This document shows positions 4,686-51,885 of a stretch of 64,000 nucleotides of DNA, one piece after another. The notes under the pieces were generated by a model, which did not search any database, was not told the origin of the DNA, and saw only the letters and a program-made list of their open reading frames with translations. Positions within the stretch are counted from its first letter, which is position 1; every line of letters begins with the position of its first letter. Both the position numbers and the translations under genes were made by a program. The DNA lies in assembly GCA_030524105.1 (NCBI GenBank), contig JAUNHE010000007.1:1-64000 (forward strand). The letters are read 5' to 3'. The stretch is from Rothia sp. (in: high G+C Gram-positive bacteria) (lineage in GTDB: Bacteria > Actinomycetota > Actinomycetes > Actinomycetales > Micrococcaceae).

Positions 4686-4712
4686 CACAGAGAAAAGACA
4701 GTAAGGAAACTA

Positions 4713-4874: not shown

Positions 4875-4893
4875 TCACTAGGGCGGGAGTGTT

Positions 4894-5532: not shown

Positions 5533-5549
5533 GCCGCCCCTAGTCTGTC

Positions 5550-7508: not shown

Positions 7509-7512
7509 TATT

Positions 7513-9312: not shown

Positions 9313-10754
9313 CTGTTCAACACCGCCTCAAAAATTTGCTGTGCCGCCGGAGCAGCCAGTGCTGCCCCTTCAGTGGCACCTACATCTTCGTATACAACTG
9401 CTAAGGCAATCTGCGGGTCATCGGCAGGAGCAAATCCGGTAAACCAGGCATTATTGAGGCCGGTTGTTCCGATTTCTGCGGTACCGGTCTTGCCGGCTAC
9501 CTTGTAGCCAGGGACGGCTGCACCGGAGGCGATACCGTTTTCCACACCGTTAACCATCCAATCATTAACCTGTTGGGCAATGTCTTCTGACGTTGACCTT
9601 CTTAGCTCCTCAGCGGAAAATTCGTAGAGTGAATTTAAGTTATGGGATTTGACAGAGCGAATCAGGTTGGGCTTCATTTGCACACCTTTATTGGCGATAG
9701 CGGCGGAGGTCATAGCCACCTGCAGGGGAGTTGTTCGCACGTCGTACTGGCCGACAGCAGCTTGAGCCAGCTGGCTAGCCTGCATATCGGCGGGAAAAAC
9801 AGACTCGGAAACTGCCAGCGGAATAGTTAGGTTAGCGTCACCGTAGCCAAAGTTTTTAGCAGTATCGGCCAGGGTGTTGTAACCGAGGTCAACAGCGATC
9901 TGGGCAAAGGGAGTGTTGCACGATTGTGCCAGTGCCCACTCAATACTGGCCTCAGTTCGGGAAGAACACTGACCATTAACATAGTTAGGCAAGCTGGCAT
10001 CTGTACCCGGCAGCGGATAAGACTGCGGGTTAGGAATAACTGAGTCCTTGTTGTATTTACCGGATTCCAGGGCCGCTACAGCATCAATAATTTTGAAGGT
10101 AGATCCGGGTGAGTAGGTGTTACCGGCAATAGCCCTGTTATAGAGGGGGTGCTCAGTATCGGCGTTCAGTTCCTGATATTTGGCAAGCACCGCTTCATCA
10201 TTATGGGCAGATAAATCGTTGGGATCGTAGGAGGGAGTACTGACCATGGCCAGCACTTCGCCGGTGCGCGGATTCAGCGCCACAATAGAGCCCTTGTGGC
10301 CGGAAAGAAGGTTATAGGCTAATTCCTGTAGCTGAGAATTAATGGTTAACTCAACCGTGGCTCCCTGAGCAGAACCACCGTTAAACATCTGGGCCAGGCG
10401 ATCATAAAACTGCCGATCGGAAGTGCCCGAGAGTTCCTCATTCATGGCTGATTCAATACCGGTGGTGCCATAGATAGAAGAGAAGTAGCCGGTCAGCGCG
10501 GCGTACTGTTGGGGGCTGGAATAAATCCGCTGGTAGTCGTAGCCGTCATTAGAGGGCACCGAGGAGGCTATCTCTTTACCATCGACTACGATAGCCCCGC
10601 GCTGCGACCCATAAATCTCATACATACCCCGAGAATTCCAGACGTTCTGCTCAAGATTCTTAGCCTCAAAAAATTGAATATAGGTTAAAGACGCAAGAAG
10701 GAGCACAAAGACGCAGGCAGAAGCAATCCAGGTTTTTCGAATAGCCTTATTCAC
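9309..10754 (-). CDS. pbpA: penicillin-binding protein PbpA (transpeptidase)
   Basis: 481-aa monofunctional class B PBP. N-terminal membrane helix (about 9-28), then the transpeptidase with SxxK Ser218/Lys221 (SPGSTFK), SxN Ser278 (SCN) and KTG Lys422 (AGKTGTAEI). It cross-links peptidoglycan outside the membrane together with the RodA partner encoded just upstream. GTG start at 10754, with GGAGG five bases before it inside the end of rodA (8-base overlap). The order rodA-pbpA-pknA-pknB is conserved in actinobacteria. Confidence 0.94.
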
Positions 10755-12189: not shown

Positions 12190-13885
12190 GAGAAGCACCT
12201 TCCGACGGCTGCTGACTTTCTGAACTAGGCTCTGGCTCCACTGTCGTCACGGTTCCTGGGCTAGGAATAAAAGGTGAGGGCTGATGGGAGGTGGCGTCTT
12301 CGGAAGCTGCCGGTTGGGTAAGGGCAGCCTGGGCCTGAAGGTCCGTAAGAATACGCTGGGCGTCGCTGAGATCATCGGCAGGAATAGTACTGCGAATCAG
12401 GGACCGTGAATACTCTGGAAGTGACTCCACTTCTATATCTGTTTCCTCAACCATCTCGTAGAGTTTTAGCGGGCCAATTGATTCCGGTATACCGCTGTAG
12501 ACGGCAACCTTATTATTGCTACTACCAACATAGTAGCGATCTCCCACCCAGGAAAAGAAGGTACCTACGGCTGCAATAATAACGGCCAAGGTCACCACCA
12601 GCGTAAAAATTCTTAAGGGCCAGCGATTTTTACCGGCGCCTTCCTCCTCATCCAGTAAAGCCTGGATTTCTTCAGGAAGTTCTGCGGTATCTTCTTGCCG
12701 GGGGCTCGGGGCGGCAGGAATAACCATGGTGGCCCGCCGTTCCAGGGTGCGATCTGTCACTGCCGGAATCATGCCTGTGCTGGTGGCGGTAGCGGCAGCC
12801 CCTACGAGCTGATGCGGCCGTTCGTTGAGTTCGTGGCGCAGTACCGACGCGGAAGATTCTTCAGCTTGCTCCGGGGGCTCATCCATGCCCGAAGATTCGG
12901 TCATCATGTTAAAGACACCATCGGAGAAGGACTCGCCACGCCATTTGCCGTGCCTGAGGGCGTTACGTAATTTAGCTTCTTGGGGGAGACGGCGTGGCCA
13001 AGGAGCACGCTGGCCGGAGGGATCTGCACCGATGTCTTCCAGCGGCTGAGTTTGCTTATCGTCAGTGAGGTCTGGGGCAGAGCCTAGAGGCTGGCCATCT
13101 TCACCATATTGCCGAACTGGAATAATAGGCTGTTCTGCTGTAATAGAGGATGCTAAGGAGTTGTCATCGATGACGGCTAGGGTAAGCACGGTAACGTTGT
13201 CCGGTGCACCGCGCTCTAAGGTCAGATCAACGAGGGAGTCGGTGATCTGCTGTAGGTCAGTGGTGGAGCGCATAATGGCTTCAATCTCACCGACGGTAAC
13301 AACGGAGTCTAGCCCGTCTGAGCTGAGTACCCAGCGCTCGCCTATGTGAGCGTCTAGGATTTTAGTTTCTAGTTCCGGGGAGGCGTCTACATCACCCAGT
13401 ACTCGCATAATGACGTTGCGGTGCGGGTGGTGCTCAGCTTCTTCTGCGCTGATACGGCCTTCTTCAATGAGCCGCTGGACAAAGGTGTGGTCTGTGGTGA
13501 TTTGTTCAAAGGTGTCTCCTCGTAACCGGTAGGCCCGGGAGTCACCTATGTGGGCTAGGGCTATCTGATCGTTATCGATGAGGAGGGCCGTGCAGGTGGT
13601 ACCCATTCCCGCTAGCCGAGGGTTGAGATCCACCAGCTCGTTCATAATCATGTTGGCGGTGGTAATCTCGTCAGCCAGGTAGACCCCCGCGGAGCCATTA
13701 AAACCGGGGTGGTCCAGGGGTGTGAGGTCTAGCACGGTGGTTGCTGATGCTACGTCTCCACCAACGTGGCCACCCATGCCGTCTGCTACAACGGCAAGAT
13801 AGTGGCCAGCGTATCCTGAGTCATCATTTTTAGATCGCACGCAGCCCAGATCTGAGCGCGCGGCAAACCGGAAAGCAATACCCAT
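12182..13885 (-). CDS. pstP: PP2C-type Ser/Thr phosphatase PstP
   Basis: 567-aa membrane phosphatase. The N-terminal PP2C domain (about residues 5-235) has the metal motif VVADGMGGHVGG and the downstream SSDGL and DNVTV motifs. A long acidic, probably disordered linker, one membrane helix (about 428-448) and a small extracellular region follow. It removes phosphate from PknA, PknB and their targets, balancing the two kinases of the same operon. It is followed directly by rodA, and fhaB precedes it by three bases. Confidence 0.92.
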   Translation of the reverse strand: MGIAFRFAARSDLGCVRSKNDDSGYAGHYLAVVADGMGGHVGGDVASATTVLDLTPLDHPGFNGSAGVYLADEITTANMIMNELVDLNPRLAGMGTTCTALLIDNDQIALAHIGDSRAYRLRGDTFEQITTDHTFVQRLIEEGRISAEEAEHHPHRNVIMRVLGDVDASPELETKILDAHIGERWVLSSDGLDSVVTVGEIEAIMRSTTDLQQITDSLVDLTLERGAPDNVTVLTLAVIDDNSLASSITAEQPIIPVRQYGEDGQPLGSAPDLTDDKQTQPLEDIGADPSGQRAPWPRRLPQEAKLRNALRHGKWRGESFSDGVFNMMTESSGMDEPPEQAEESSASVLRHELNERPHQLVGAAATATSTGMIPAVTDRTLERRATMVIPAAPSPRQEDTAELPEEIQALLDEEEGAGKNRWPLRIFTLVVTLAVIIAAVGTFFSWVGDRYYVGSSNNKVAVYSGIPESIGPLKLYEMVEETDIEVESLPEYSRSLIRSTIPADDLSDAQRILTDLQAQAALTQPAASEDATSHQPSPFIPSPGTVTTVEPEPSSESQQPSEGASHG

Positions 13886-13888
13886 AGG

Positions 13889-14377
13889 CTAGGCCCTAAG
13901 TTGCATGACGGTGCGGCCTACTCGAAAATCGGTACCTGGCTCGATGGGGGTAGCTCTGGTTAGGCGGTTGTCTCCAACAAAGGTGCCGTTGGTGGAGCCA
14001 AGATCTTCTAAAAACCAGCGTGAGCCTTGGGGAAAGAGGCGGGCGTGGTGCCCGGAGGCGTAGTCATCTTGGAGGGAGACTTCAATATCGGTTGATCGTC
14101 CCATGGTGATGGGGTGGTCGCTCAGGCGCATGACGGATCCGGCCTGGACCCCGTCTACAATAACTAGCTGCGTTGGCCTGGCCGGTGGTGGCGGTGTTCC
14201 CGGGATGTACTTGGGGGAGCCGTCGCCTTGGGGGGAGGCAGCCAGGGCCCGGGCTGTGCGCAGATTTCTTCCTACGCCGAGATCTCGCCGGCTTGCGGCC
14301 AAGATCATAAAGACAAAGAGCCAGAGCAGAGCCAGGAAGGCAAAACGCAGAATAGTTACCGTTATTTCTGATGCCAC
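13889..14377 (-). CDS. fhaB: FHA-domain membrane protein FhaB/FipA
   Basis: 162 aa. One N-terminal membrane helix (about 8-27), a short linker and a C-terminal FHA domain (about 75-160) with the phosphothreonine-binding elements GRS, SGHHARL and LGSTNGTFV intact. In mycobacteria FhaB (FipA) binds phosphorylated partners of PknA/PknB and links division factors. GTG start directly abuts the fhaA stop (TAA then GTG), so the two are co-translated. Confidence 0.9.
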   Translation of the reverse strand: MASEITVTILRFAFLALLWLFVFMILAASRRDLGVGRNLRTARALAASPQGDGSPKYIPGTPPPPARPTQLVIVDGVQAGSVMRLSDHPITMGRSTDIEVSLQDDYASGHHARLFPQGSRWFLEDLGSTNGTFVGDNRLTRATPIEPGTDFRVGRTVMQLRA

Positions 14378-15274
14378 TTAGTGTTCACTCCTGGAAACCA
14401 TGAGGCGGAATACGATACGGGCACGGCCCATGGTAATGACGGAGCCGCTGTTGATAGCTCGGCGTCCCAATAATTTTTGACCGTTGAGGTAGCTGCCGTT
14501 GGTGGAGCCGAGGTCTACGGCCAGGTAGACACCGTCTTGTTCCATGATTTCTAGGTGGCGTCGGGAGACGCCGGTGTCTTCGACCGTGATATCTGCATTA
14601 GTGCCGCGACCCAGGACGACAGGTAGGGAGCGGATAGAGTAGCTTTGGCCGTTTATTTCTAGGATAACTTGAGGTTTAGGCCGGGGACGCTGCTGAATCT
14701 GGGGGCTAACCTGGGTGGGGGCGGCGGCATAGTTGTGTTGGGGGCGGGCCTGCTGGGCGGGTGGTTGCGGTGCAGGTCGTCCCACCCTATTGGGCATGCC
14801 GGCAGGATTGTTTGGGTGGGGGCTGTTGAGGGGGGCTTGTGTTCTGGCTGCCGGTGGGCGGGGCCGGCTCTGGTTCCTGTTTGCTGCTTGCTGGCCGGCC
14901 TGACCTACCTGTTCCTGGTTGGAGTCAACCTGGAAGTCTCCGGGCATGACGCTTTCTTCTACGGTGAAGGTAACCCGCACGGAGCCGCGCAGGGAATATC
15001 CTTGGGCGCGGGCGTGACGGATTGCCACGTCGCAGAGTTCTTCTGCCAGGGGTGCGCCCCAATCTTGGACGCGATGAAAGTCTTCGGGTGCAAAGTTGAT
15101 AGTAAAGATGTTGGGGGCAATGGTGCGGCCGGAAGAGATGGAGTATGCCTTGTTATCCATATCTGTACGAATACGGTTAGCTAGGTCAACTGGTTCAAAT
15201 TCGCTGCCGCCCTTGCTAAAGGTGCCGCGCACGGCTTTTTCTAGGCCCTGTTCAATTTTATTGATGAACCCCAT
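14378..15274 (-). CDS. fhaA: FhaA, DUF3662 plus FHA domain
   Basis: 298 aa. The N-terminal DUF3662 domain (about 1-115, MGFINKIEQGLEKAV onward) is followed by a Pro/Gln-rich linker and a C-terminal FHA domain (about 205-290) with GRG, SRRHLEI and LGSTNGSYLNG. FhaA binds phosphorylated MviN/MurJ in mycobacteria and so connects kinase signalling to lipid II flipping. A strong AGGAGG site precedes the ATG. It is the first gene of the seven-gene minus-strand operon ending at pknB. Confidence 0.93.
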   Translation of the reverse strand: MGFINKIEQGLEKAVRGTFSKGGSEFEPVDLANRIRTDMDNKAYSISSGRTIAPNIFTINFAPEDFHRVQDWGAPLAEELCDVAIRHARAQGYSLRGSVRVTFTVEESVMPGDFQVDSNQEQVGQAGQQAANRNQSRPRPPAARTQAPLNSPHPNNPAGMPNRVGRPAPQPPAQQARPQHNYAAAPTQVSPQIQQRPRPKPQVILEINGQSYSIRSLPVVLGRGTNADITVEDTGVSRRHLEIMEQDGVYLAVDLGSTNGSYLNGQKLLGRRAINSGSVITMGRARIVFRLMVSRSEH

Positions 15275-15878: not shown

Positions 15879-16683
15879 GTGCTTAGTAACGAAGAAATTT
15901 TGCTGTCTGGGCCATCGCTGGCTATTTTGGTGAGCTGCCGGTATATCACTTTTAGCCTACCTATTTACCGGAAATAGGAATTCTGCTGTCCCTCGTCCCT
16001 CGATGTCCTGGAAGACTGCGCTTTCGCTTAATGTCTTCACTGCGGGCGCATTCTGCCTATTTTATATCTCAGCAACCATGGTTCCCCCGGCAGCTGCAAG
16101 TGTGATTGAAACAGGGGTTGGCCCGCTGATTGTCGCCCTTATTCTGGTAAAAATGGCAAAGAATACTACTACTTTAAAGGCCTTATTTACACCTGTTCTA
16201 GTAATTCTCCTAGCCTTTATTTTCGTGGTGATTCAAGACATCCAATACGAGACCGTAACGGTTGTGGGTATTCTGTTGGCTGTTTTGGCGGGATCATCGG
16301 CGGTAGGAGTTCTCTATTCGTCTCGAGCTGCTGTGCGAGAAGGAGAAAATGTTCTACAGATAGCTGCTACACGTTTTCATCTTGCATGGGTGGTCAGCGG
16401 TATCATCATATTTTTCACTGCTCAGGATGCACTATTAGGTAGTGATTTCTTCCAAAATATTGGGTTATCTATCTTGTGTGTAACTTTGCCTATCTTGCTC
16501 CTTCAGTGGGGTATTACTATTGCTTCCCCCCTAGCTTCCTCTTTAGTTATAGCGTGGTTACCTGCCATTGTTTTAGGCACTGATGTACTTCTAGGAGCCA
16601 CGGTCACTTTTAGCCAGGTCGTAGTCCTTTTCTCGATTGTATGTGTCTCGATAGCGCCTGTTTTATTCTCAAAGAAAGTTTAG
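15879..16683 (+). pseudogene. broken DMT/EamA-family transporter
   Basis: The region 16003-16683 reads as 226 aa with about seven hydrophobic segments, resembling the middle and C-terminal part of a drug/metabolite (EamA) transporter. The normal N-terminus is missing. Upstream coding-like sequence continues in another frame (from 15879, SGPSLAILVSCRYITFSLP, to a TAG at 15975) and in the main frame only from 15934, so a frameshift appears to split the gene, and the first helix is absent altogether. No ribosome site precedes ATG 16003. I infer a decayed gene at the edge of a variable region. A shortened functional protein cannot be excluded. Confidence 0.5.
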
Positions 16684-16731
16684 ATATGAAAATTCTTTGA
16701 TTTCGGGAGAGCTTCACCGAAAGCCCTCAAA

Positions 16732-17419
16732 TGGGGGTGGGGTGGTTTGGATGCTGATCAGCGGGCGGCGTTGGTGCATAATGCTCCTGGCGTAGTGGGT
16801 AATTTGAATGGTGTGCCGTATGGGGTTCGTGATCAGGCTAATCGTGCGTTGATTGAAGATTTATTGGTGGACGATCAGGTTATGCAGAACACGAAGGATA
16901 CTTTAGAGAATGTTCGAAAGTCAGCCAGATTCCAAAAGGGTAGGGAAACCTCTAGGTTTATTGTTTCCCTTGATATCTCGAATGTCTCGGTAGATGATGG
17001 CTCTACCTAAGGAATAGACTTTGCCTGGCGCCACAGAATTCAGTTCGCGAGGTGGTTTCGATGCTTCTGGTAATTATCTTGAAGATGTCGATGAGCACGG
17101 ACTTTTTGAAAAGAATGATAAAGAGGGTGTGGAGGACTATAGTTTTTCGAGGCTTGCTGATGGGAATACGGATGGTTTCTTAAGTTCAGGTACCAGTAGT
17201 TTGTATTACGGTTCGCGTATTTCATTAGGGGATTATTCGGTAGTGGATAAAAAGTTGATTAGTCCTATGCTGCCAGGTAATCCGCGGGTTCCTGGGAGTG
17301 GTTCTTTCCCTTATGTGGATGTTGACGAGAAGGGGAAGCTCTCGGCTGAGGAAGTGCGTAGGTATGCTCAGGAGCAGGGGCTAGAAATGTCTGATCTTGT
17401 ACGTATCGAAGAAGAGTAG
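16732..17419 (+). pseudogene. decayed alpha/beta hydrolase (DUF1023), catalytic core deleted
   Basis: Two pieces match the intact 720-aa protein at 19068. The first (about 16732-17010, GGLDADQRAALVHNAPGVVG) matches its residues about 278-367. The second (17021-17419, FDASGNYLEDVDEHG) matches about 611-720. About 245 residues between them, holding the nucleophile Ser511 and the acid Asp569, are missing, as is the N-terminal T7SS signal and coiled coil. In the second piece the first of two candidate His positions is Asn. The remnant cannot be an active hydrolase. The lipoprotein gene 12 bases downstream is intact. Confidence 0.75.
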
Positions 17420-17430
17420 GTATCCGAAAG

Positions 17431-18003
17431 ATGAAGAAAGTAAGAATGAGCTGGTGGGGCCTTGCTGGTGTCTTTTTAATGGGGTCTATGGTTTTGGGAG
17501 GTTGTTCTATGAATAATGTGGAGGACTCGGGGTTAAAAACTGATCCCTCGTCTACGGCGTATGATCCTTCGTTTGATCTGAATGCTGATTATGAGAGTGC
17601 TGTTTTGGATGTGATTGAAGCGTCTGGGGTACCTGCTGAGTGGTGGAATTACGAAGGGGGAAACATATTTAGCGTCGAAGACTTTAAAAGTTATGTTCCT
17701 ACTGCTGGTTCGTATTGTGGCGACTCTGAGAACGACGAGGAGCTTTACACCAAATCCATCTTGATAGAGACTCAGCGCACCTACTCTTCTGAGGAGTACC
17801 TTCGTAAGAGTGATCAGATGTGGTCTCATTGGGAGTCTCAGGGGTTTAAGCCGTATGTGGTGGGTAGCGATGGGCGTTCCAACAAGATTGCTTATCGCAC
17901 CGCCGGTAATGTATTGATTCAGTTTCATGCTGGTGAAAACGGATTAGCGGTGTTTGCTGATACGGAGTGTTTGCCTAGTCCTAGTGCTTCTGCATCTGCG
18001 TGA
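17431..18003 (+). CDS. small lipoprotein A of the hydrolase-associated family
   Basis: 190-aa secreted lipoprotein: signal peptide with lipobox VLGGC (Cys at about residue 25), a Ser/Asp-rich spacer, and a globular domain of about 130 residues. It shares with the lipoproteins at 18423 and 21245 the pattern IEASG, a mid-protein Cys (YCG), W..WxSxG[FLW] and a last conserved Cys (TEC). The two Cys could form a disulfide. It follows the decayed hydrolase just as the 21245 lipoprotein follows the intact one. Family unknown to me; a role as partner or immunity protein for the hydrolase is inference. Confidence 0.8.
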   Translation: MKKVRMSWWGLAGVFLMGSMVLGGCSMNNVEDSGLKTDPSSTAYDPSFDLNADYESAVLDVIEASGVPAEWWNYEGGNIFSVEDFKSYVPTAGSYCGDSENDEELYTKSILIETQRTYSSEEYLRKSDQMWSHWESQGFKPYVVGSDGRSNKIAYRTAGNVLIQFHAGENGLAVFADTECLPSPSASASA

Positions 18004-18096
18004 TGGAGTCGGCGGGGATTTTACGACCGTATGGAAAACGGCGTAGCAAAATTCCTGGCCAGTATCTTGAAAGATAGTGAGCAATAATCCACACGA

Positions 18097-18134
18097 CATA
18101 AACCCCCGGTTACTTCGGTGACCGGGGGTTTATG
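18097..18134. terminator. strong hairpin terminator with TTCG loop
   Basis: A 17-bp stem (left arm 18097-18113, right arm 18118-18134) with one G-T wobble is closed by C(TTCG)G, an extra-stable tetraloop. It lies 94 bases after lipoprotein A and should end that transcript. The arms carry AAA/TTT at the base, so it could work on both strands. Confidence 0.8.
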
Positions 18135-18422
18135 TGCTTAGAGGCACTTCAGGGGAAGCCTTTTTGCATCTTTAGGTTTTATGTGGGTTTTCTTCTGGTT
18201 GGGGTCGAAACGCCGCTGCTACTTTTGGTGTTTTAGCAGGGGCTGCGGCTGATTTTAGAATGTCCTGTGTCAGGTTAGTAGAAGTCTTTTAGTTGGCTTC
18301 TGTTTGGGTGTTTTTGATGCTTTAAAGCTGCTGGTGGGAATCCTGCTGCCTGGGACAGCATCGTGGAGGTGCTGCTTGTTTTTGAGGCCGTGAGGTAACT
18401 GCTGAGCGAGGGGGTAGATAAG
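18135..18422. other. T/G-rich intergenic stretch, no gene seen
   Basis: Nearly 290 bases of plus-strand T and G-rich sequence with stops in all frames. The composition continues unchanged into the lipoprotein gene at 18423 and differs from the surrounding genes. I see no RNA gene or repeat. It may be decayed coding sequence or simply the promoter region of the hydrolase operon. Confidence 0.4.
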
Positions 18423-19064
18423 TTGACGGTCAGGTTGAGGGTGTTGGTGTTTTTGCTGTCTTTGGGTGTTTTTGTTTCTGGTTGTGGTGGGGGTCAGCGG
18501 GTGGAGGATTCTGATCGTTATATTAAGGCTTCTGTGCAGGAGGTTGTTGATGAGTGGATGTTGGCTCGTAATGGCACGATTGAGGCTAGTGGGGGTGGGC
18601 TTTTTTATTATGATTCGGAGGAGACTTCTGCTGTGGATGTAGCTAGTACTGATATTCGCTATGACCTTCCGGGGGAGGCATGTACTGCCGGCAAAGGTAA
18701 TGAATCGGCTTATATTTTTTTGAGTGTTGCTACGTCGGTGGTTGAGGCGCCTGGGACGGATCTTGATGCGGAGGTTGTTAAGGTTGCTGATTTTTGGAGG
18801 TCTCAGGGTTGGGGTGAGATTGGTCGTGGTGGGGAAGGTATTGGTGAGCGTCGTATTTTTGTGTATACGCCTTTGGGTACGCGGTTGACCTATGCGGTTG
18901 CTATGACGGATGGGCGTGTGATGAAGATTTTGCAGATGGAGTCCTTATGCGCCAGGGAATTCGATAATCTTTCTGCGAGTTATTTGGGTGATTTTGAGGA
19001 TCGGTTTTTGCCTTCGCCTAGCCCCTCGAGTGTTGAAAATATTTCGGCGGATTCTGAGGAATAA
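18423..19064 (+). CDS. small lipoprotein B of the hydrolase-associated family
   Basis: 213 aa. Signal peptide with lipobox FVSGC (Cys at about residue 21), then a domain sharing NGTIEASGG, a mid Cys (GEACTAG), the FWRSQGW motif and a C-terminal Cys (ESLC) with lipoproteins A and C. The C-terminus is acidic and Ser-rich. TTG start preceded by GAGGGGG at eight bases. It ends three bases before the hydrolase ATG, so the two are one operon. Codon use is strongly shifted to T/G endings (GTT, TTG, GGT), unlike the chromosome around it, which suggests horizontal acquisition. Confidence 0.82.
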   Translation: MTVRLRVLVFLLSLGVFVSGCGGGQRVEDSDRYIKASVQEVVDEWMLARNGTIEASGGGLFYYDSEETSAVDVASTDIRYDLPGEACTAGKGNESAYIFLSVATSVVEAPGTDLDAEVVKVADFWRSQGWGEIGRGGEGIGERRIFVYTPLGTRLTYAVAMTDGRVMKILQMESLCAREFDNLSASYLGDFEDRFLPSPSPSSVENISADSEE

Positions 19065-19067
19065 AAC

Positions 19068-21230
19068 ATGATTACTCGTCCTTCTGATTGGTCGCCCTTA
19101 ACCGGTGGAGATCCCTGCCCGGGAAACCCGGCCGCCTGGGATGCTGTCGTTTACTTTTGGGAACGACGTCAAAGTGATATCGAAAGTTACCAGCAAAAGC
19201 TCAGCCAGCATACTGTTATCGATGCTGATGGTAAAACCTTCGGTAGGTTAGAAACGGTATTTAGTGAGGGGGCAACGATGATTTCCTTGATCGCTACTGA
19301 ATATCGTAAGGCTAAAGAGAGTGCTCAGTCCTGGCGGGATCGACTGGATGACATGCAGTCTCGTGCTTCCAAAGCATACCGCAAAGCTAAAGCTGCAGAG
19401 GCAAGGTTAGATGAAGCCCAGCGAAAAATTGCTGGGCTTAAGGAAGAGGCGGCCAAGGATAAATCGTCGGATCCAATTATCGATCTTCGGCTGCACGGTA
19501 TATTCGGTAGCGGCGGTCTTGAAGGGGAAGCGGCTGATGCACAGGCTGACATTGATGCGGCCCAGAAGACGGTAGATGATATTCGGGATGAGTATTCTCG
19601 GGAGTCTGCTACTGCTATTGGTGAGTATAGGTTGGCGTCGGTACAGGGAATCTATCAGAGCACCCCACGAGGCAATCCTTTTAGTAAGCCTATGGAAATA
19701 GCGGGTTCACTAGGAATAGAAACCGCTGAGTATCTAACGTTGTTAGAATCTCAAGCCGGCCAGAGCCCGGCAGCGCTAAAGAAATATCTGGATGCCCTGA
19801 GCGATCTAGAACCTGCTGACCTAAACGAATACTTTGTGACTCACCCTGATGCGGCAAAATATCCGCTTCAAGTCTCTGATGAGACGGTTGCTAACGCTGT
19901 AGTGGTCAAAGAATGGTGGGCTAGTCTTGATAAAGACCGGGCTGCTGCTTTGATTGATGCTGCGCCAGGGATAATCGGAAACCTCAATGGTATTCCCTAT
20001 AGAGATAGGGACAAAGCGAATCGATGGTTAGGGCAAAAAATAGCTGCCGATCCAAATACAGATCCAGACACTTTAGCCATGATCGAAAGCCTTTTTAAAG
20101 CAGCCACTTCTCAACCAGATGAGCCGAGGCGCTATATAACTAGCTTAGATCTTTCTAATCTTAAAGAAGAGAACGAAGATAACTATAGCTACAACAATGT
20201 ACTTGCTTCTATATCTCTGGGATCGTTGGATGATGCGGATAAGGTTTCCATCGTTGTTCCTGGTATGGCTAATAATGTTTCAAACTTAGAAGAGCTCACC
20301 CGAGCTGGAATGAATATATACAAAGAACAAGAAAATGCCCACAAAATCCATGGTGAATCTAACCAGCAGATTGCCGTGAACCTGTGGGTTGGATACGAAT
20401 CTCCGCCCGAATTAGGAGCTCAAATCCAACATCTAGATAAGCTGGTTACCGGTATGAATCTGTCCCGTAGGGGTGGGCAGAAACTTGCGGATTACATCGA
20501 TGGCCTGAACGTCACAAAATCTACTTCCCCAGAAAATAGCCGCGTATGCGCTGCACCGGATAGGTTCAACGATCCTTTTATCTCAGTTATAGCCCATTCT
20601 TACGGAACTACTACTGTTGGTGAAGCAATGAAAGTTGCTGAAACCAGGGTTAATAACGTTGTTTTATACGGTTCCGCAGGTATCGGGACAGGTTCTGTTG
20701 TCAATTCTAATCGGGGTGCTGGCTGGAAAGTCGATCGGAATCAGGAAGGTAAGCAGCAAATTTTCTATACGGATTCCCTAGAAGATTGGACAGCGCCGGG
20801 CGGGTACATCCCCGGATGGCTTCGTCATAGTATTAGCCCGAAGGGTGCTCAGGAGCCTCGTGTTACCCCTGAATTTATGGCTGATGCGCAACGTTTTCAA
20901 TCCACAGAAGGTATTAGCGCCGACGGTCACTATTACGAAGATGTGGACACGCATTCTTTTGAGGGTCAATCGAATGAACAAGGTTTTGTACATGCTGATA
21001 CCACGAGTCTTGTCTACGGGGCACGAGCCTCAATGGGATACTCCGAAGACCTCCAGAAGAAGTTCTATCAGCCCTGGTACTTTGAGTGGGATATCAGGGG
21101 ATGCCCCGTCTTAAAACACGTAACTGCCAATGATTTAGAGAACGGAAAAGTTCCCGCAGATTTAATGGAGAAAATCAAAGCATCACAAGATATTGCGCAA
21201 TCAGATTTAATCAAGGTAGAAATTAATTAA
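19068..21230 (+). CDS. putative T7SS-secreted alpha/beta hydrolase (DUF1023)
   Basis: 720 aa, no classical signal peptide. The N-terminus RPSDWSPLTGGDPCPG matches the short putative T7SS signal of actinobacterial secreted toxins and enzymes. Helical coiled coil about 70-190. The DUF1023 linker motif WWASLDKDRAAALIDAAPG and GNLNGIPYRDRDKANR spans about 280-320. The hydrolase core about 385-635 has nucleophile Ser511 (AHSYG, with Ala where most relatives have Gly), likely acid Asp569 and His621 or His629. Substrate is unknown; lipids or esters in wall or competitor envelopes are possible. Lipoprotein genes lie 3 bases before and 14 bases after. Export by the type VII-like locus at 28.4-37.4 kb is inferred. 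Confidence 0.82.
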   Translation: MITRPSDWSPLTGGDPCPGNPAAWDAVVYFWERRQSDIESYQQKLSQHTVIDADGKTFGRLETVFSEGATMISLIATEYRKAKESAQSWRDRLDDMQSRASKAYRKAKAAEARLDEAQRKIAGLKEEAAKDKSSDPIIDLRLHGIFGSGGLEGEAADAQADIDAAQKTVDDIRDEYSRESATAIGEYRLASVQGIYQSTPRGNPFSKPMEIAGSLGIETAEYLTLLESQAGQSPAALKKYLDALSDLEPADLNEYFVTHPDAAKYPLQVSDETVANAVVVKEWWASLDKDRAAALIDAAPGIIGNLNGIPYRDRDKANRWLGQKIAADPNTDPDTLAMIESLFKAATSQPDEPRRYITSLDLSNLKEENEDNYSYNNVLASISLGSLDDADKVSIVVPGMANNVSNLEELTRAGMNIYKEQENAHKIHGESNQQIAVNLWVGYESPPELGAQIQHLDKLVTGMNLSRRGGQKLADYIDGLNVTKSTSPENSRVCAAPDRFNDPFISVIAHSYGTTTVGEAMKVAETRVNNVVLYGSAGIGTGSVVNSNRGAGWKVDRNQEGKQQIFYTDSLEDWTAPGGYIPGWLRHSISPKGAQEPRVTPEFMADAQRFQSTEGISADGHYYEDVDTHSFEGQSNEQGFVHADTTSLVYGARASMGYSEDLQKKFYQPWYFEWDIRGCPVLKHVTANDLENGKVPADLMEKIKASQDIAQSDLIKVEIN

Positions 21231-21244
21231 GGTAGGAATAGTCA

Positions 21245-21814
21245 GTGAAAAGGAATCTATCCTTTTTGAATATAGCAGTGCTGGGGCTGGTTAGTACGAG
21301 TTTATTATCAGGATGTAGTGACCTCGGGATCGATAAAATCTCGAGCTCTGCTAGTAGTTCAACAGCAACTGGTAGTGAGATGGAACAGGAGTTTCGGGAT
21401 ATTACTAAAGGCACCATCGAGGCTGCTGGTACCGATCCGTCAACTTTTCGCTTCGGCGATAATTCCAGTTTTTCCCTGGAAAAGTTTGATGCGATGGAGC
21501 CGGTAGGGTATTGCGGTCAAGATGATGCAGGTGAAGATCAGGGTAGCTACGGGGTAATGCTTGAAAATGACGTAAAGTACTCTGCATCGGAATATGAGAA
21601 AAAGACAGACGCAGTATGGAGCTACTGGGAATCTTTAGGATTAGAACCTAGTAACTTTGGTTCAGAAGGTAGCGCACGAACTATTAAGGTTCAGACTGCT
21701 TTAGGTGGGAGAGTAACATACCTGGCTTCTGCCAACGGTGAGTATATTACCGTTGATTCTGCCTGCTCAGTCAAAAACACTGTACCTAATCATGGAGAAT
21801 GGTGGCAAAACTAA
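21245..21814 (+). CDS. small lipoprotein C of the hydrolase-associated family
   Basis: 189 aa. Signal peptide with lipobox LLSGC (Cys at about residue 24), a Ser-rich spacer, then the family domain with IEAAG, a mid Cys (GYCGQ), VWSYWESLGLE, TALGGRVTY and a C-terminal Cys (DSAC). GTG start with a purine-rich AGGTAGGAA upstream. It follows the intact hydrolase by 14 bases in one transcription unit, and is clearly a paralogue of lipoproteins A and B. The protein would sit on the outer face of the membrane. A protective or chaperone role toward the hydrolase is inference. Confidence 0.82.
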   Translation: MKRNLSFLNIAVLGLVSTSLLSGCSDLGIDKISSSASSSTATGSEMEQEFRDITKGTIEAAGTDPSTFRFGDNSSFSLEKFDAMEPVGYCGQDDAGEDQGSYGVMLENDVKYSASEYEKKTDAVWSYWESLGLEPSNFGSEGSARTIKVQTALGGRVTYLASANGEYITVDSACSVKNTVPNHGEWWQN

Positions 21815-21906
21815 TACCGGCACCGGTGGTGTTGTGATCTAGCACTGGCCTTTAATTCTATTTACAAAACCTAGAACTTTATAGCAGCCTCCTCGGATAT
21901 TTTTAG

Positions 21907-22101
21907 CTGAGGGGCTGGGCTCTAGAATGCAGTGCCTTACCGGGACAGCTGAGCATTGTTTTTTATGAGGGATTTCTGTGGCGGATCAGAGAGGTCTCTG
22001 CTGCCGATCCCGGCCAGCTAGAACTAGACCTGGAGTCTGAAGACACCCTCTTTTTTAACATGATGATTCATTACCTGTGGAGCCGGTACATCCGTGACTG
22101 A
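21907..22101 (+). pseudogene. possible C-terminal gene remnant
   Basis: An open stretch of 64 codons without a start codon reads like real protein (PGQLSIVFYEGFLWRIREVS, then a charged segment and MMIHYLWSRYIRD before TGA). It lies in the otherwise empty interval between lipoprotein C and the convergent gene at 22131. I read it as the tail of a gene whose front was lost. No family is recognised and it could be chance. Confidence 0.3.
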
Positions 22102-22130
22102 AGCGGATGCGCCAGCTAGCCCTAGCCCGG

Positions 22131-22598
22131 TTAAAACCTTAACCCCCGTCTTCCATCGGGGCCAGGCACCAGAAAAGACCCGTGCTCAGTCTGCTGGTTA
22201 GTCTCTTTAAAAGGGTCCCGGTCCGCCGGCAGATCGGCCGGGCTTTCCTGGACGGTCCTGGCCTGGTTCAGGGAAGCTGCCTCGGAAGATACCTGCCCCT
22301 GCTGCTGCCGCTCAGATCCGGCAAGATCAGCCTGCCGGTGCTTCTTCTCTGCCCCAGCCCGTATTAACCAGGCCAGCGGCCCAAAGATAGGAAGGCACAG
22401 AGCCAGCAGCAGCCAGCCCACTTTCTGAACCTCATTAAAATAGGGGTTACGGTAAATAGTAAAAATACAGTACAAAACCAAGCCGGTGGCACAGCCCAAG
22501 AGCAGCAGGAGCAGCCAGGCTAAAAAATCAGTCGTTTGCTCCGTAGCCTGAACAGCTCCAAGAACAAAACCGGGTGAAGTGGCAATAGCAAGGCACAT
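22131..22598 (-). CDS. PLDc_N-domain membrane protein
   Basis: 155 aa with two membrane helices (about 24-47 and 60-81). The second has the PLDc_N consensus NEVQKVGWLLLALCLPIFGPLAWLI, found at the N-terminus of cardiolipin synthases and, alone, in many small actinobacterial membrane proteins. The C-terminal half is hydrophilic and Gln/Glu-rich, probably disordered. There is no HKD catalytic motif, so it is not a phospholipase itself. It follows the nucleotidase gene on the same strand with 39 bases between. Confidence 0.75.
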   Translation of the reverse strand: MCLAIATSPGFVLGAVQATEQTTDFLAWLLLLLLGCATGLVLYCIFTIYRNPYFNEVQKVGWLLLALCLPIFGPLAWLIRAGAEKKHRQADLAGSERQQQGQVSSEAASLNQARTVQESPADLPADRDPFKETNQQTEHGSFLVPGPDGRRGLRF

Positions 22599-22637
22599 AA
22601 AACCAGCTTACAGCCCTACCGGTAGGCGGCAGCCAGC

Positions 22638-24623
22638 TTAAGGAGCGGCGCCGGCAGAGGAAGCCAAAAACCTTGCCTTTAACCGCACTACAGTACCGGT
22701 TTTACCGCTGGTATCGGTCAGAAGAATCTCCTGCTCGCCAGCAGGAATACCCTTACCGCTTAAAGGAAGATTAACCACTGCAACACCCTGGTCCAGCTCA
22801 ACCTGGCCCAGCCTTATCCCGGCAACAGAAACCTCTAAGGAGGTAAGATCTGGAACCTCAAAACTGCGAGTCTGCAGATCGGTCAGAAGAAAATTAAGCA
22901 TGCCACCTAAGGAATAACTGGAGCTGACCTGCTCGGCTCGGACAGCTTGTTTTCCATAACGGGCAGAGACCTCACCCATGTTCTTTAGGTAGGCTATAAA
23001 AGCCTCTGAATCAACCAGGGCGGTATCCTGGTTATTCTTTCCTTCTGCCAGAGTTCTAAAATTATCTCCCCCTCCCAGTAAAAAGGAGGGCAGAGCAACC
23101 CTGAAGACATCCGAATCCTGAACCAGCTTGCCATTAACAAAAATCTGCTGGATATGCTGGCCTCGCTCATCGTATCCGGCAGCCCCAGTTTCCCCACGGT
23201 AGGTGTAGCTAACGTTCTCTGATAAACCTAATTGCAGGTAGGGTCTTGTAGCGGGCAAACCGTTGGCATCCTGCTGCCACTGCTCTTCTAAAACCTGCTT
23301 CAGCTGGGCACCGGTCAAGTCGGTTGTCCACAAGTTATTGGCAAAGGGGGCAACAGAAATAACATCACTCACTTTAAGACTGGTCGTGGCTGTCTGTAAT
23401 GAGCTACGCAAGCCGGAGGGAAACTCATCTCTGAGACCACCGGGGTTAACAATGCCAATATCTGCGGAGGTTCTACCGGTAGAGTTAGCGGCCCAAAGGT
23501 ACATATCTGCCAGCAGATGGCCCATGGTGGACTCTAGATCCCGCTGATCAAACCCACCCCGGTTATTAATCTGGCTTTCATCCCAACCGGTCGTAATTTT
23601 TCCCTTTAAAGAAGCCACCTCCTGACTGCCTTGCTCCTGGGCATAGTCCTCTGCAGCTGTCAAAATTTCCTGGGTTCTCTGCAGAAGGGGATCGGCTGCT
23701 ACCTCAGCAGGACTGGGCTGGGCTGCCCGGGGGCGTAAACTACTGCTGTAACTAAGAAGTTCATTATGCTGGTCCAGGGTGAGAGTTACCACACCCAGAT
23801 TATCTCCATAATTACCGGTTTGTAGCACAGGCCGAGTCTTACCCGGTTGCCCAGGCAAAGGGGTATCTAGCAGATACTCTTGGTGGGTATGGCCAGTAAA
23901 AATAACATCGACAGCAGGATCAGTGCCGCTGACGATAGGATCGCTATCCGGATGACTAGCATCCACACCTTCATGGTATTCAGCAATAATAAGGTCTGCC
24001 TCGCCATTGGCCCGATCGCCATCGCTCAGCTGCCGGGCATAGGTGTTAGTAGCCTGAACAGGATCTATAAAGTCAACCGAAGCCACTAAGGCCGGGTTAA
24101 TCATGCTGGGGGTATCTTGAGAGACTGTTCCGATAACAGCAACAGAGATTCCCTGCTTCGTTTCTAGGATGGTATAAGGCTCCATAGCCGGCTGGCCGCT
24201 TGCCCGGTCTATAACGTTAGCCGCTAGATAAGGAAAATTAGCCCGATCCTGCACCCTGGTTTGGAGGTCACGAAGGCCACGGTCAAACTCATGGTTGCCT
24301 ACCGCAGAGGCCTGCAAACCTAAGGCATTAAGGTAATCCAGGGTAGGGGTATCTTCCTGGACGCTGGAGACAAAGAGTGAGGCAGAAATATTATCCCCAG
24401 CAGAAAGAAAGAGGCTATCCGAACTTTGAGCCCGCTGGTCTTGAATTGTTTTTGCCAAGCCCATACCAATATCTGAGCTGATTCGGCCGTGAAAATCATT
24501 GATGTTAAGCAGCTCTAGGGTCTTGGTTTGCTGAGCAAAAGCCGGGCCCCAGCTAAGCGGGCTAGCGGCCAGACAAAAAACAAGAAAACAGGACAGAGCC
24601 CCACGGGTTATGCGTCGAGTCAA
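22638..24623 (-). CDS. secreted 5'-nucleotidase / 2',3'-cyclic phosphodiesterase
   Basis: 661-aa exported metallophosphoesterase. Metal motifs NINDFHGR, AVGNHEFDRG and GHTHQEY are present, followed by the C-terminal 5'-nucleotidase domain (NNRGGFDQRD, GGLRDEFPSG, GGGDNFRTL). It would release phosphate and nucleosides from extracellular nucleotides. I choose TTG 24623, since AAGGA lies seven bases upstream and the product then begins directly with a signal peptide (RRITRGALSCFLVFCLAA, cleavage after AFA). An ATG at 24674 adds 17 polar residues that would spoil the signal. A palindrome lies just upstream (24642-24657). Confidence 0.9.
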   Translation of the reverse strand: MTRRITRGALSCFLVFCLAASPLSWGPAFAQQTKTLELLNINDFHGRISSDIGMGLAKTIQDQRAQSSDSLFLSAGDNISASLFVSSVQEDTPTLDYLNALGLQASAVGNHEFDRGLRDLQTRVQDRANFPYLAANVIDRASGQPAMEPYTILETKQGISVAVIGTVSQDTPSMINPALVASVDFIDPVQATNTYARQLSDGDRANGEADLIIAEYHEGVDASHPDSDPIVSGTDPAVDVIFTGHTHQEYLLDTPLPGQPGKTRPVLQTGNYGDNLGVVTLTLDQHNELLSYSSSLRPRAAQPSPAEVAADPLLQRTQEILTAAEDYAQEQGSQEVASLKGKITTGWDESQINNRGGFDQRDLESTMGHLLADMYLWAANSTGRTSADIGIVNPGGLRDEFPSGLRSSLQTATTSLKVSDVISVAPFANNLWTTDLTGAQLKQVLEEQWQQDANGLPATRPYLQLGLSENVSYTYRGETGAAGYDERGQHIQQIFVNGKLVQDSDVFRVALPSFLLGGGDNFRTLAEGKNNQDTALVDSEAFIAYLKNMGEVSARYGKQAVRAEQVSSSYSLGGMLNFLLTDLQTRSFEVPDLTSLEVSVAGIRLGQVELDQGVAVVNLPLSGKGIPAGEQEILLTDTSGKTGTVVRLKARFLASSAGAAP

Positions 24624-48038: not shown

Positions 48039-48575
48039 ATGGCTGCAAAAGTTCAAAGTAACAGCGCAGATGCTGTGGAGGAGACTCCTTGGCTAAATGA
48101 GGAAGAGCGCGAGGGTTGGTTATTTCTTGCTTCGGTCTTCTTTAGTTTGCCGGGTCAACTTGAGAATCAGTTGCAGCGCGATGCAGGCTTAAGCTTTGTG
48201 GAGTATATGGTTTTGGCCATGCTTTCTGAAGCCCCTGAGCACTCGTTAACCATGACCGAACTAGCGCATCAAACAAATACGCTCTTGCCTAGGTTGTCTC
48301 GGGTGGTAACTCGGCTAGAAAAAAGCGGTTATGTTGAGCGTTCGGTGTGGTCGCGTGATCGGCGGGTTTCCATCTGCCATCTACGAGATGAAGGTTTTAA
48401 GAAGGTTCAGGAAGCCGCTCCGGGCCATGTGCTTGAGGTGCGGCGGCAGATCTTTAACCGGCTGGGGCCTCGTCAGGTGAAGCAGCTAGCCCGAATTGGG
48501 GAGTCGGTTTTGGGCGCCAAACCCTCGGAGGTTATCAACCTTTCGAGCGTAACCATATTCGACGGCACAGATTAG
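48039..48575 (+). CDS. MarR-family transcriptional regulator
   Basis: 178 aa. The winged-helix DNA-binding domain (about 55-125) shows the MarR pattern: LTMTELAHQTNTLLPRLSR (recognition helix), VTRLEKSGYVERS and the wing SRDRRVSICHL. Ligands of such regulators are usually phenolic compounds or oxidants. It is followed by a DoxX-type membrane gene, a common target of MarR regulators that sense quinones. GGAGAG precedes the ATG. Confidence 0.9.
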   Translation: MAAKVQSNSADAVEETPWLNEEEREGWLFLASVFFSLPGQLENQLQRDAGLSFVEYMVLAMLSEAPEHSLTMTELAHQTNTLLPRLSRVVTRLEKSGYVERSVWSRDRRVSICHLRDEGFKKVQEAAPGHVLEVRRQIFNRLGPRQVKQLARIGESVLGAKPSEVINLSSVTIFDGTD

Positions 48576-49145: not shown

Positions 49146-49279
49146 TCTTAATCTTCGGTTGTATGTATCTTTTGTGGCTCGCATCCTTGTAATGTAAAGA
49201 GTAGGGCTTCTTCTTCATCAGAAACCTACCACGGCTTCTTTAGGTGGTTGAAAGTAAAGCGGATCACGGGAGATCGATC

Positions 49280-50548
49280 ATGGGGTCGCATAAAAAACTT
49301 GGCCTTTTACTGACTGCTGTTCTATTAGCAGTATCTGCTTGTTCTGCCCAACCGGTGCAGGATGCTGACCAAGAAAATGCTGCATATATAAAATCCGGTA
49401 GTCAGGACCAGCAGTTGGATCAAGATCAGCGCCTTGCTCAGGCCCAGCGGCTGGGTGCTAGCTACGATTATCAGGCAGCTCTGGATCTTCTTCAGGGTGT
49501 GCCCGGTAGCGAGGCCGAGCGGCTTCGGTCAGAGCTTGAGCAGGCTAAGCAAGAGGCCCTTGTTTGGCAGCATCCCGAAAAAATACCGCATCTTTTTGTG
49601 CACTCCTTGATTGTTGATACAGAGCGAGCTTTTGACGGAGATCAGGATGCTCAGGGTTACGCAGACTACATGGTAACCGTGCGGGAGTTTAAAGAGATAC
49701 TTAAGCAGCTCTACCAGCGCGATTATGTCTTGGTTAACCCTGAGTACGTAGCCAACAAGGGCTCGGGCACGATGGAATATCAAAAAATCCTGCTCCCTCA
49801 AGGTAAAAAGCCGCTGGTGCTCTCGCAAGATGACACTAACTATTACGAGTATATGGAAGGGGACGGTTTTGCTAAAAACCTGACCCTTGATGCCCAGGGT
49901 AAGGTCGTTAACACCTATCTTGATGCCGCTGGTCGGGAGCATCTGGGCGCTTACGACATGGTGCCCTTGGTGGACGAGTTTGTGGCCGAGCATCCGGATT
50001 TTTCTTACCGCGGCTCTAAAGGAATTATTGCCCTAACGGGATATAACGGTGTTCTGGGTTATCGGACCTCCGCCCTGATCTACCCGGATTCAGCTAGCCG
50101 GGAGCAGGACACGCAGCAGGCCCGTCGGGTGGCTGACGCCATGAAAAGCAATGGCTGGGTCTTTGCCTCCCACTCCTGGGGGCACATTAACTATGGTCAG
50201 CTTTCGGCCGGGGCTGTGGCTGCCGATGCCGATAAATGGGATCGGGAAGTTAAGCCTATTGTGGGAGGCAGCCAGCTCCTTATTTACCCTTTCGGTGCGG
50301 ATATTTCTGATGTTAGGCCTTATGGCGGCCAAAAGTATCGGGATCTTTCTTCGCGCGGATTCAGTAGCTTTTTTAATGTTGATGCTTCTGTGCCGGCCTG
50401 GCAGCAGCTTGGCCAGGGCTACTGGCGCCAGGCCCGTATTAATGTGGATGGCCTACGGTTTGCTTACGCTAAAAGCCAGGGCGAACAGATTTTACAGCCC
50501 TTTTTTGACCTGGACCAAGTTATTGATCCGGCCCGGCCGTCTTCCTAA
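49280..50548 (+). CDS. lipoprotein polysaccharide deacetylase-like (NodB) protein
   Basis: 422 aa. Signal peptide with a VSAC lipobox (Cys at about 21), a helical Gln-rich spacer, then a NodB-type domain. The metal-binding motifs appear as LVLSQDDTNYYEYM (Asp-Asp) and ASHSWGHINY (H-x3-H), and LLIYPFGADI is the third motif. It would remove acetyl groups from peptidoglycan or another surface glycan. ATG 49280 is chosen because GGGAGA lies at the right distance and the signal peptide then starts MGSHKKLGLLL. The DnaA-box cluster begins right behind its stop. Confidence 0.85.
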   Translation: MGSHKKLGLLLTAVLLAVSACSAQPVQDADQENAAYIKSGSQDQQLDQDQRLAQAQRLGASYDYQAALDLLQGVPGSEAERLRSELEQAKQEALVWQHPEKIPHLFVHSLIVDTERAFDGDQDAQGYADYMVTVREFKEILKQLYQRDYVLVNPEYVANKGSGTMEYQKILLPQGKKPLVLSQDDTNYYEYMEGDGFAKNLTLDAQGKVVNTYLDAAGREHLGAYDMVPLVDEFVAEHPDFSYRGSKGIIALTGYNGVLGYRTSALIYPDSASREQDTQQARRVADAMKSNGWVFASHSWGHINYGQLSAGAVAADADKWDREVKPIVGGSQLLIYPFGADISDVRPYGGQKYRDLSSRGFSSFFNVDASVPAWQQLGQGYWRQARINVDGLRFAYAKSQGEQILQPFFDLDQVIDPARPSS

Positions 50549-50571
50549 TTTTTCTGTTATATCCACAGGAC

Positions 50572-50597
50572 TTATCCACACCGTGGAAAACTTACAG
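50572..50597 (+). repeat. 26-bp direct repeat, copy 1
   Basis: A 26-base unit beginning with a DnaA box (TTATCCACACCGTGG) and ending AACTTACAG. It is identical to 50883-50908, and partial similarity continues for about ten more bases. The duplication contains the DnaA box, so it probably belongs to the DnaA-binding array. Confidence 0.85.
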
Positions 50598-50882
50598 ATC
50601 TGTTATTACAGACCTGTTAGCTAGGTGTATGGGATAGTCAGCTTAGGTCTATAGCTGCTTATTGCCCGGAATCTAGCCTCGGACAGCTGCTGTCCTTGGC
50701 CAGGTTTATTGTCTATCTTGGATCCTACCTCTCTGGGACCCAAGAGAAATCCACAGCTGTGGATAACTCTGTGAACAATATCCACTTAAGGTTGATTTTT
50801 ACCCAAGTGAAGATGGATTTTTGCTGAGATAGACCTTAAATAAGCTTAAAATAAGCGCAGGGGATGGCTTTATCCACAGAGT

Positions 50883-50908
50883 TTATCCACACCGTGGAAA
50901 ACTTACAG
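50883..50908 (+). repeat. 26-bp direct repeat, copy 2
   Basis: Identical to 50572-50597. It lies directly left of the AT-rich TTCGA block, and another perfect DnaA box sits just 13 bases further upstream (50870-50878). Confidence 0.85.
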
Positions 50909-50918
50909 TCCTGTGATT

Positions 50919-50955
50919 TTCGAACAGTTTTCGATAATGTTCGAATTTTTTTCGA
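50919..50955 (+). repeat. helically phased TTCGA motifs
   Basis: TTCGA begins at 50919, 50930, 50940 and 50951, that is at steps of 11, 10 and 11 bases, matching one DNA turn. The sequence between is A/T-rich. The phasing puts all four motifs on one face of the helix, which fits cooperative protein binding or an origin unwinding element. Confidence 0.7.
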
Positions 50956-51252
50956 GAATTTTAGCTTGCCGGACAGGAGATTCTCAGCTGATCTAACCTG
51001 TGGGGTGTAAACGTATTCGATCTACCCACAGCTTTATCCACTGACTGTGGATAACTTTTTTACACAGTGCACACAGCATGTGGATAAGTTGACGGGAGCT
51101 AAGCCGGGCTGCCTCCCTGGGGTGCACGCCTGGCAAGAGCATAACCCGCTCTGAGCTGCGAAACAGTTGGTTAGCAACCGTGCAATCACCTTCGATAGTG
51201 CGTAGACTGAAGGACTGAAACTGTTTCTGAGGAAAAGAAAGGTGACTTCCCG

Positions 51253-51885
51253 ATGGCTGAGAAGTACGTTCTACCCGAACTACCCTACGATTATGCTGCT
51301 TTAGAGCCGCATATTTCTGCCCGTATCATGGAGCTGCACCACGATAAGCACCACGCAACCTATGTTGCTGGGGCCAATACAGCCCTAGAAAAAATGGAAG
51401 AAGCCCGGGCTAAAGGGGACTATGCCAATATTGGCAAGCTCTCTAAGGATCTGGCCTTTAACCTCGGCGGTCATACCAACCATTCAATCTTCTGGACCAA
51501 CCTTTCCCCTGAGGGTGGCGACAAGCCCACCGGTGAGCTGGCCGCTGCCTTGGACGATAACTTTGGCTCCTTTGATGCCTTCCGGGATCATTTTGCTAAT
51601 GTTGCCCTAACCCTGCAGGGCTCTGGCTGGGCAATTCTGGCCTGGGATACGGTGGGCAAGCGTCTTGTCATTGAGCAGCTTTACGATCAGCAAGGCAATA
51701 TTTCTGTGGCTCTGATCCCTGTGCTGCAGCTAGATATGTGGGAACATGCTTTCTATCTGGATTACCAGAACGTCAAGGCAGACTATGTCAAAGCCTTTTG
51801 GAACATCGTTAACTGGGCTGATGTACAAGCTCGTTTTGATCGTGCTGTTTCACAGACCAAGGGCTTGATCATTCCTGAAGCCTAG
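51253..51885 (+). CDS. sodA: Fe/Mn superoxide dismutase
   Basis: 210 aa, usual SOD length. Metal ligands are His29 (ELHHDKHH), His77 (NHSIFW), Asp161 and His165 (LDMWEHAFY). It converts superoxide to hydrogen peroxide and oxygen in the cytosol. AAAGGTGA precedes the ATG. Fe versus Mn cannot be decided safely, though [10 protein letters not shown] and the LQGS motif before it are common in Mn or cambialistic enzymes. Confidence 0.96.

Follow-up and report, generated by a model that had tools for sequence, protein, structure and literature searches.

A conserved origin-proximal cluster of DnaA boxes and dyads in Rothia is a likely DnaA-control element

We describe a cluster of six exact TTATCCACA DnaA boxes, within positions 50572–51087 of a 64-kb window of a Rothia genome, that is probably an origin-proximal DnaA-control element of the same kind as Escherichia coli datA and the Bacillus subtilis DnaA-box clusters (DBCs). 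The window, the whole stretch of DNA that was analyzed, is C5:1-64000 of an 11-contig, 2.19-Mb assembly. The element consists of spaced modules, is conserved in most of the genus and in several other genera, lies near the chromosomal origin in most genomes and occurs independently of any one neighboring gene. From these observations we infer that it binds DnaA and that a putative partner protein, recognizing dyads that abut the boxes, participates in an effect on initiation. The analogy of datA and a Streptomyces DnaA-box cluster makes a negative effect the most likely.

The exact boxes lie at 50572 (+), 50758 (−), 50870 (+), 50883 (+), 51046 (−) and 51079 (−), and no other exact copy occurs in the window. 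When up to one mismatch is allowed, ATATCCACA at 50559 and TTATCCACT at 51034 (+) are added, and a weaker box, TTGTTCACA, is found at 50770. In 100 shuffles of the window, exact boxes numbered 0.36 on average and three at most, and no shuffle reached six. The whole genome (2.19 Mb) contains 49 exact boxes, compared with 10 matches to the reversed pattern. With the 33 boxes outside clusters as background, 0.008 exact boxes are expected in 516 bp, and the probability of at least six is ~3e-16 per window of that size. The cluster is the densest in the genome, with six exact boxes versus four in the dnaA-dnaN gap, three upstream of dnaA and three at C3:148.4 kb; strong boxes are clustered here outside oriC, as at datA-type sites. 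The box search and shuffles thus bear out the first-pass annotation, which had placed six perfect and two one-mismatch boxes in gene-free DNA bounded by the end of a deacetylase-like gene at 50548 and the start of sodA at 51253. There is no convincing gene in this DNA; an open reading frame of 157 amino acids, in another frame of the deacetylase gene, extends to 50624.

The element is built of four modules in the order A-B-A′-B′, that is, two kinds of module, each present twice. Module A (50559–50607, + strand) combines DnaA boxes with a dyad of the form TTACA-N4-TGT(G)ATT: two direct boxes 13 bp apart (a one-mismatch box at 50559 and an exact box at 50572) are followed by an inverted weak box (50582–50590) and the dyad TTACA-GATC-TGTTATT (50592–50607), and a composite pattern describing this junction matches at 50583–50605. 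Module B (50750–50791, + strand) reads TCCACAGC-TGTGGATAA, TGTGAACAA, ATATCCACT and TTAA, with an exact inverted box at 50758–50766 and TGTGAACAA at 50770–50778. Module A′ (50870–50918, + strand) has exact direct boxes at 50870 and 50883, again 13 bp apart, an inverted weak box at 50893–50901 and the dyad TTACAGTCCTGTGATT at 50903–50918; an AT-rich stretch, in which TTTTCGA is repeated and GC content is 26% over 50 bp, occupies 50914–50963. In module B′ (51034–51054), TTATCCACT on the plus strand faces the exact TTATCCACA at 51046 on the minus strand, and the sixth exact box (51079–51087, − strand) falls outside the conserved modules. In general form, an A module is a box, 4 bp, a second box, 1–2 bp, an inverted box and then TTACA-N4-TGT(G/T)ATT, and a B module is a box-like sequence followed by TGTGGATAACTCTGTGAACAATATCCACTTAA. 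Both A copies are kept in some species, though not in all.

In an alignment of six species that have both A copies ~311 bp apart, 20-column blocks within modules are 0.65–0.98 identical, versus 0.28–0.42 in spacers, 0.48–0.54 at module boundaries and at most 0.38 in the outer flanks. Module B is the best conserved, with a mean pairwise identity of 0.98 in its best block. The distance from A to B, measured in 12 genomes, is 172–176 bp in six and 184–186 bp in six; that from B to A′, in 25 genomes, is 136–138 bp in 15, 127 bp in four and 170–268 bp in six. Conserved modules alternate with spacers that vary in sequence but keep a nearly fixed length; the cluster looks like a selected element, and the regular spacing suggests a complex of DnaA with a partner on the dyads. 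Spacing by whole helical turns is suggestive only: at 10.5 bp per turn, eight hand-picked length classes gave a Rayleigh p of 0.025 and a V-test p of 0.005, p rose to 0.10 when only multi-turn classes were used, and one class, of 131 bp, does not fit the phase.

Conservation across Rothia was assessed in 35 genomes, the source and 34 others. In the loci chosen, at least seven boxes (up to one mismatch) fall within 700 bp in 27 of the 35, most with a MarR-family gene and/or sodA in view. The exact composite, GTGGANNASTNACANNNNTGTNA, occurs at 38 sites in 29 of the 35 genomes, at one locus per genome, with no match to the reversed pattern; near variants are present in G027, G031 and G033. Among the eight genomes below this box count, five (G010, G012, G023, G025 and G026) carry the exact composite 9–24 kb from sodA, and a cluster related to the element, its dyad degenerate, is present in G009; there is no such cluster in the stretches examined of G011 and G022. 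Two other arrangements of boxes were seen. Dispersed inverted pairs, TGTGGATAA-N(19–42)-TTATCCACA, occur at single places on three Rothia chromosomes among the matches listed (complete for G001, G003 and G005); having looked at eight (L342–L349), we judged these pairs, 19–42 bp apart, to be different from the element. An extra contig of R. nasimurium (G005:C3, L259) carries three exact boxes among iteron-like repeats, the trio appearing twice, 21.5 kb apart, and was judged unrelated.

In the Micrococcaceae as a whole, the composite matches in 64 of 395 genomes (29 Rothia and 35 others) and in 12 of 32 genera, and the reversed control in none; the remaining 331 genomes lack a match to this strict pattern. 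Loci of 26 of the 35 non-Rothia genomes were viewed, and 22 of these have at least four boxes within 700 bp. Two of the four sparse loci (L268 and L288, in two other genera) are apparently upstream of nrdH, a name given by eye; with three and no boxes nearby, we took them to be false positives. Two matches in g14 (L286 and L287) are weak, with two and three boxes; one is at a distance of 139 kb from dnaA, and the other lies across the start of its record. In 13 loci of the genera g7, g10 and g11, the element is near a homologue (26%–44% identity) of a rhomboid gene that in Rothia adjoins a second box cluster. The place beside the rhomboid gene is therefore probably ancestral, and the sod-linked cluster probably an additional or moved copy in Rothia.

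As the first-pass annotation had stated, dnaA and dnaN are outside the window: both are single and adjacent on contig C3 (dnaA at 163.8 kb and dnaN at 161.7 kb, each on the minus strand), and the cluster is at C5:50.6 kb. The complete R. nasimurium chromosome, which has dnaA at 0.5 kb and the cluster ~85 kb away at 2.359 of 2.443 Mb, is collinear with the end of C3 and the beginning of C5. By this collinearity, and ignoring the unseen gap between contigs, the cluster of the source genome is ~83 kb from dnaA, confirming the earlier suspicion that the origin could be close. Eleven Rothia genomes have the element and dnaA on the same contig; the distance is 54–85 kb in seven (G001, G005, G006, G014, G015, G027 and G029) and greater in four: 115 kb in G007, on the opposite side of dnaA, 133 kb in G003, 152 kb in G012 and 243 kb in G025 (for G003, G005, G025, G027 and G029, the value presupposes circular closure of the contig). 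Among 24 non-Rothia genomes searched for dnaA, 23 have it on the contig of the element, which in 20 is 13–62 kb away, downstream in the direction of dnaA; of the rest, G245 requires circular closure, G076 has a distance of 139 kb and in G152 the element is across the start of the record. Like the DBCs, then, the element is conserved, outside oriC and origin proximal, with four of the 11 Rothia lying farther out, at 115–243 kb.

Positions 3948–15274 of the window contain sortase, glutamine amidotransferase (pabA-like), PASTA-kinase and pbpA/rodA/pstP/fha-like genes, named partly by eye. This block is across dnaA from the rhomboid gene (C3:148.6 kb), a split common to R. nasimurium. In other actinobacteria, the sortase-to-fha-type block and the rhomboid gene are origin neighbors on one side.

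How might such an element act? DnaA would bind the strong boxes as oligomers at the four spaced modules, and a partner protein, on the dyads abutting the A and A′ boxes, would help or gate DnaA. Because the element is ~83 kb from dnaA, it would be duplicated soon after initiation, and the doubled sites would postpone the next initiation by removing free or ATP-bound DnaA, through titration or stimulated hydrolysis.

This proposal draws on systems in other bacteria. In E. coli, datA, a negative regulator of initiation (PMC5295017), lies outside oriC and has several strong DnaA boxes within ~1 kb; a second protein has its site between boxes, and the spacing matters, according to excerpts of two accounts (PMC4585315, PMC5295017). 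Whereas that site in datA is for IHF and lies between boxes at fixed spacing, the Rothia element has a different dyad that abuts its boxes, its modules are duplicated and it is nearer the origin (~83 kb). We know of no partner dyad at the B. subtilis DBCs. These clusters (Okumura 2012) are likewise outside but near oriC, and removal of six advances initiation, although excerpts of one review rate their role as minor (PMC5295017). Repression of untimely initiation is ascribed, in excerpted text, to clusters in both B. subtilis and S. coelicolor (PMC5295017, PMC5742627), and the reviews, in the parts drawn on here, disagree on how much the B. subtilis clusters matter. The Streptomyces cluster (Smulczyk-Krawczyszyn 2006) resembles the Rothia element in being actinobacterial and is described as repressing untimely initiation (PMC5742627); the strong Streptomyces box is given as TTGTCCACA (PMC4285127) versus TTATCCACA in Rothia.

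The first-pass annotation had offered a datA/DARS-like control site as one of two readings. As to kind, this stands, supported by conservation, origin proximity and gene-independence; titration, ATP hydrolysis and ADP release are not separable by sequence. The main alternative within the same kind is an activating effect, with the element, like DARS, promoting release of ADP from DnaA and so stimulating initiation. Excerpts of PMC4585315 describe E. coli DARS1 and DARS2 as having three-box cores, DARS2 with IHF and Fis sites, and the compact, conserved three-box groups of the Rothia element, beside the presumed site of a second protein, recall these cores, in a comparison that extends to the presence of such groups and not to the box-by-box layout of DARS. 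E. coli oriC is at about 84 min. DARS1 and DARS2, at 17.5 and 64 min (PMC5295017), are far from it, whereas the Rothia element is close to the origin, and we consider a DARS-like role unlikely.

Could the boxes instead serve a neighboring gene? The element is flanked upstream by the polysaccharide-deacetylase-like gene (49244–50548, + strand), which varies among species and scores 22.1 bits against Pfam PF01522, slightly below the 23.1 cut-off, and by a MarR-family regulator gene (48039–48575, + strand) that is often near the element in Rothia. Downstream is sodA (51253–51885, + strand), whose product is 90% identical to SodA of R. nasimurium and R. nasisuis. As DnaA acts as a transcription factor at some sites (excerpts of PMC4447404) and the element is upstream of sodA in most Rothia loci seen, at a distance of a few hundred bases, it could be a promoter or operator region through which DnaA controls sodA, marR or the deacetylase gene. 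However, sodA is ~12 kb from the element in R. nasisuis (L214), where the cluster is still beside MarR, and 2.4–4.8 kb away in G002, G007, G027 and G031, and in the three other genera described above the element is beside the rhomboid gene. We therefore rejected a sodA promoter, and regulation of any of the three genes is improbable. The sodA, MarR, DoxX and deacetylase genes are variably present around Rothia clusters, and the element is independent of any one of them. In a scan of sodA loci covering 80 named loci among the matches listed, clusters appeared in R. nasimurium and Kocuria massiliensis, with a weak one in K. polaris; the R. nasisuis locus showed none in that scan, since its cluster is beyond the locus.

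Elsewhere in the window are two tandem Na+/H+ antiporter genes (PF06965; 44692–47544, minus strand) and a region of lower GC content (0.48; 16001–24000), perhaps a variable cassette for secreted proteins, in which small lipoprotein-like genes are repeated and an alpha/beta-hydrolase (Abhydrolase_8) gene is found.

It has also to be asked whether the element functions mainly in segregation, anchoring or nucleoid architecture, with the DnaA boxes as structural sites. Regularly spaced modules together with the dyad of a second protein would fit an architectural complex. The enrichment, however, is of strong DnaA boxes, and the 64-kb window contains no match, with up to three mismatches, to the parS consensus TGTTTCACGTGAAACA; we give such a function little credence. 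Finally, the other original reading, a relocated chromosomal oriC, or a second active origin, is very improbable: although strong boxes adjoin a 50-mer of 26% GC, close to that of the dnaA-dnaN gap (24%), just two of 27 species (the source genome and G003) have their lowest-GC 50-mer at this position, dnaA and the element are 13 kb or more apart wherever both were placed on one contig, and dnaA and dnaN are intact elsewhere with their own exact boxes (four in the gap and three upstream of dnaA). The relocated oriC was rejected on this placement and on GC skew, which flips near C3:160 kb, at dnaA-dnaN, and which along 164 kb of C5, divided into 21 windows (8 kb each, the last 4 kb), is positive in 18, including both sides of the cluster, so that the C5 scan detected no sign change there; skew in R. 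nasimurium was too noisy for use.

If the cluster is a DnaA-control element with a partner, the dyad may point to that partner. Seven Rothia genomes contain 24 copies of the dyad YTACANNNNTGTRATT, compared with one match to the reversed control. Eight occurrences are rhomboid linked (three assigned by distance from dnaA only), four sod linked, five at whiB-family promoters, two upstream of dnaA and five at other sites (two each in G003 and G005 and one in G027). The source genome has three, at 50903 in the element, at C3:148449 and at C10:12039.

The dyad at C3:148449 belongs to a second, paralogous cluster (C3:148415-148564), which has three exact boxes, is ~15 kb from dnaA and is beside the rhomboid gene (Pfam PF01694). 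In several Rothia, this cluster resembles the element: a pair of direct boxes, the dyad CTACA-N4-TGTAATT and a pair similar to module B lie 14–19 kb from dnaA; the copy in the source genome has one exact box before the dyad and a pair after it. It differs from the element in having fewer exact boxes and no exact composite match, and in several species the inverted box is replaced by TGTTAATAA.

The dyad at C10:12039, of the AATTACACGCGTGTAAT type, overlaps the inferred −10 (TTGACG-17/18-TGTAAT, by eye) of a WhiB-family gene (Pfam PF02467), which we take to be of the whiB2/whmD type. In five of the seven genomes, a dyad is at a whiB-family promoter, and in all five WhiB homologues (70%–100% identical) are just downstream. 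Upstream of dnaA, the exact dyad is present at seven of 30 Rothia dnaA loci, all in a divergent clade, and also in G025, the eighth genome of that clade; it is absent from the other 22 Rothia loci, three of which are cut short upstream by the start of the record (the count leaves out G013, G014 and G015). None of 24 non-Rothia dnaA loci has the exact dyad, and two g5 genomes have AACTACA-N4-TGTAGTT.

One candidate for the protein that binds the dyad is MtrA. Excerpts of two papers report that MtrA binds oriC, dnaA and wblE/whiB1 in other actinobacteria, targets that overlap the dyad sites, through motifs that are GTCACAgcg or 7-bp boxes and not dyads (PMC5487470, PMC2945938). As the target named there is wblE/whiB1, versus the presumed whiB2/whmD here, and its motifs are not dyads, we regard MtrA as a lead. 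It is possible, and we suggest it tentatively, that the Micrococcaceae element fuses DnaA boxes to the operator of a single regulator, an operator that also overlaps the −10 of a septation-type whiB-family gene and that some clades have upstream of dnaA; one protein would then tie the availability of DnaA to the division program.

DnaA-box control loci are a known kind of site. As far as our searches reach, what is new is a composite module combining boxes with a dyad, the spaced duplication of this module, the fact that it is conserved in a genus and in several others of the family, and the connection with whiB; among open-licence PMC papers, we found no report of such an element in Rothia or the Micrococcaceae. 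How actinobacteria prevent re-initiation is poorly understood, and to our knowledge they have no known SeqA- or Hda-type systems. With a compact, deletable element that carries a conserved, presumed site for a partner, and with its paralogue ~15 kb from dnaA, both DnaA titration and the coupling of replication to division become directly testable in easily grown Micrococcaceae. The protein that recognizes the dyad, if found, may be a cell-cycle regulator of both the DnaA sites and whiB.
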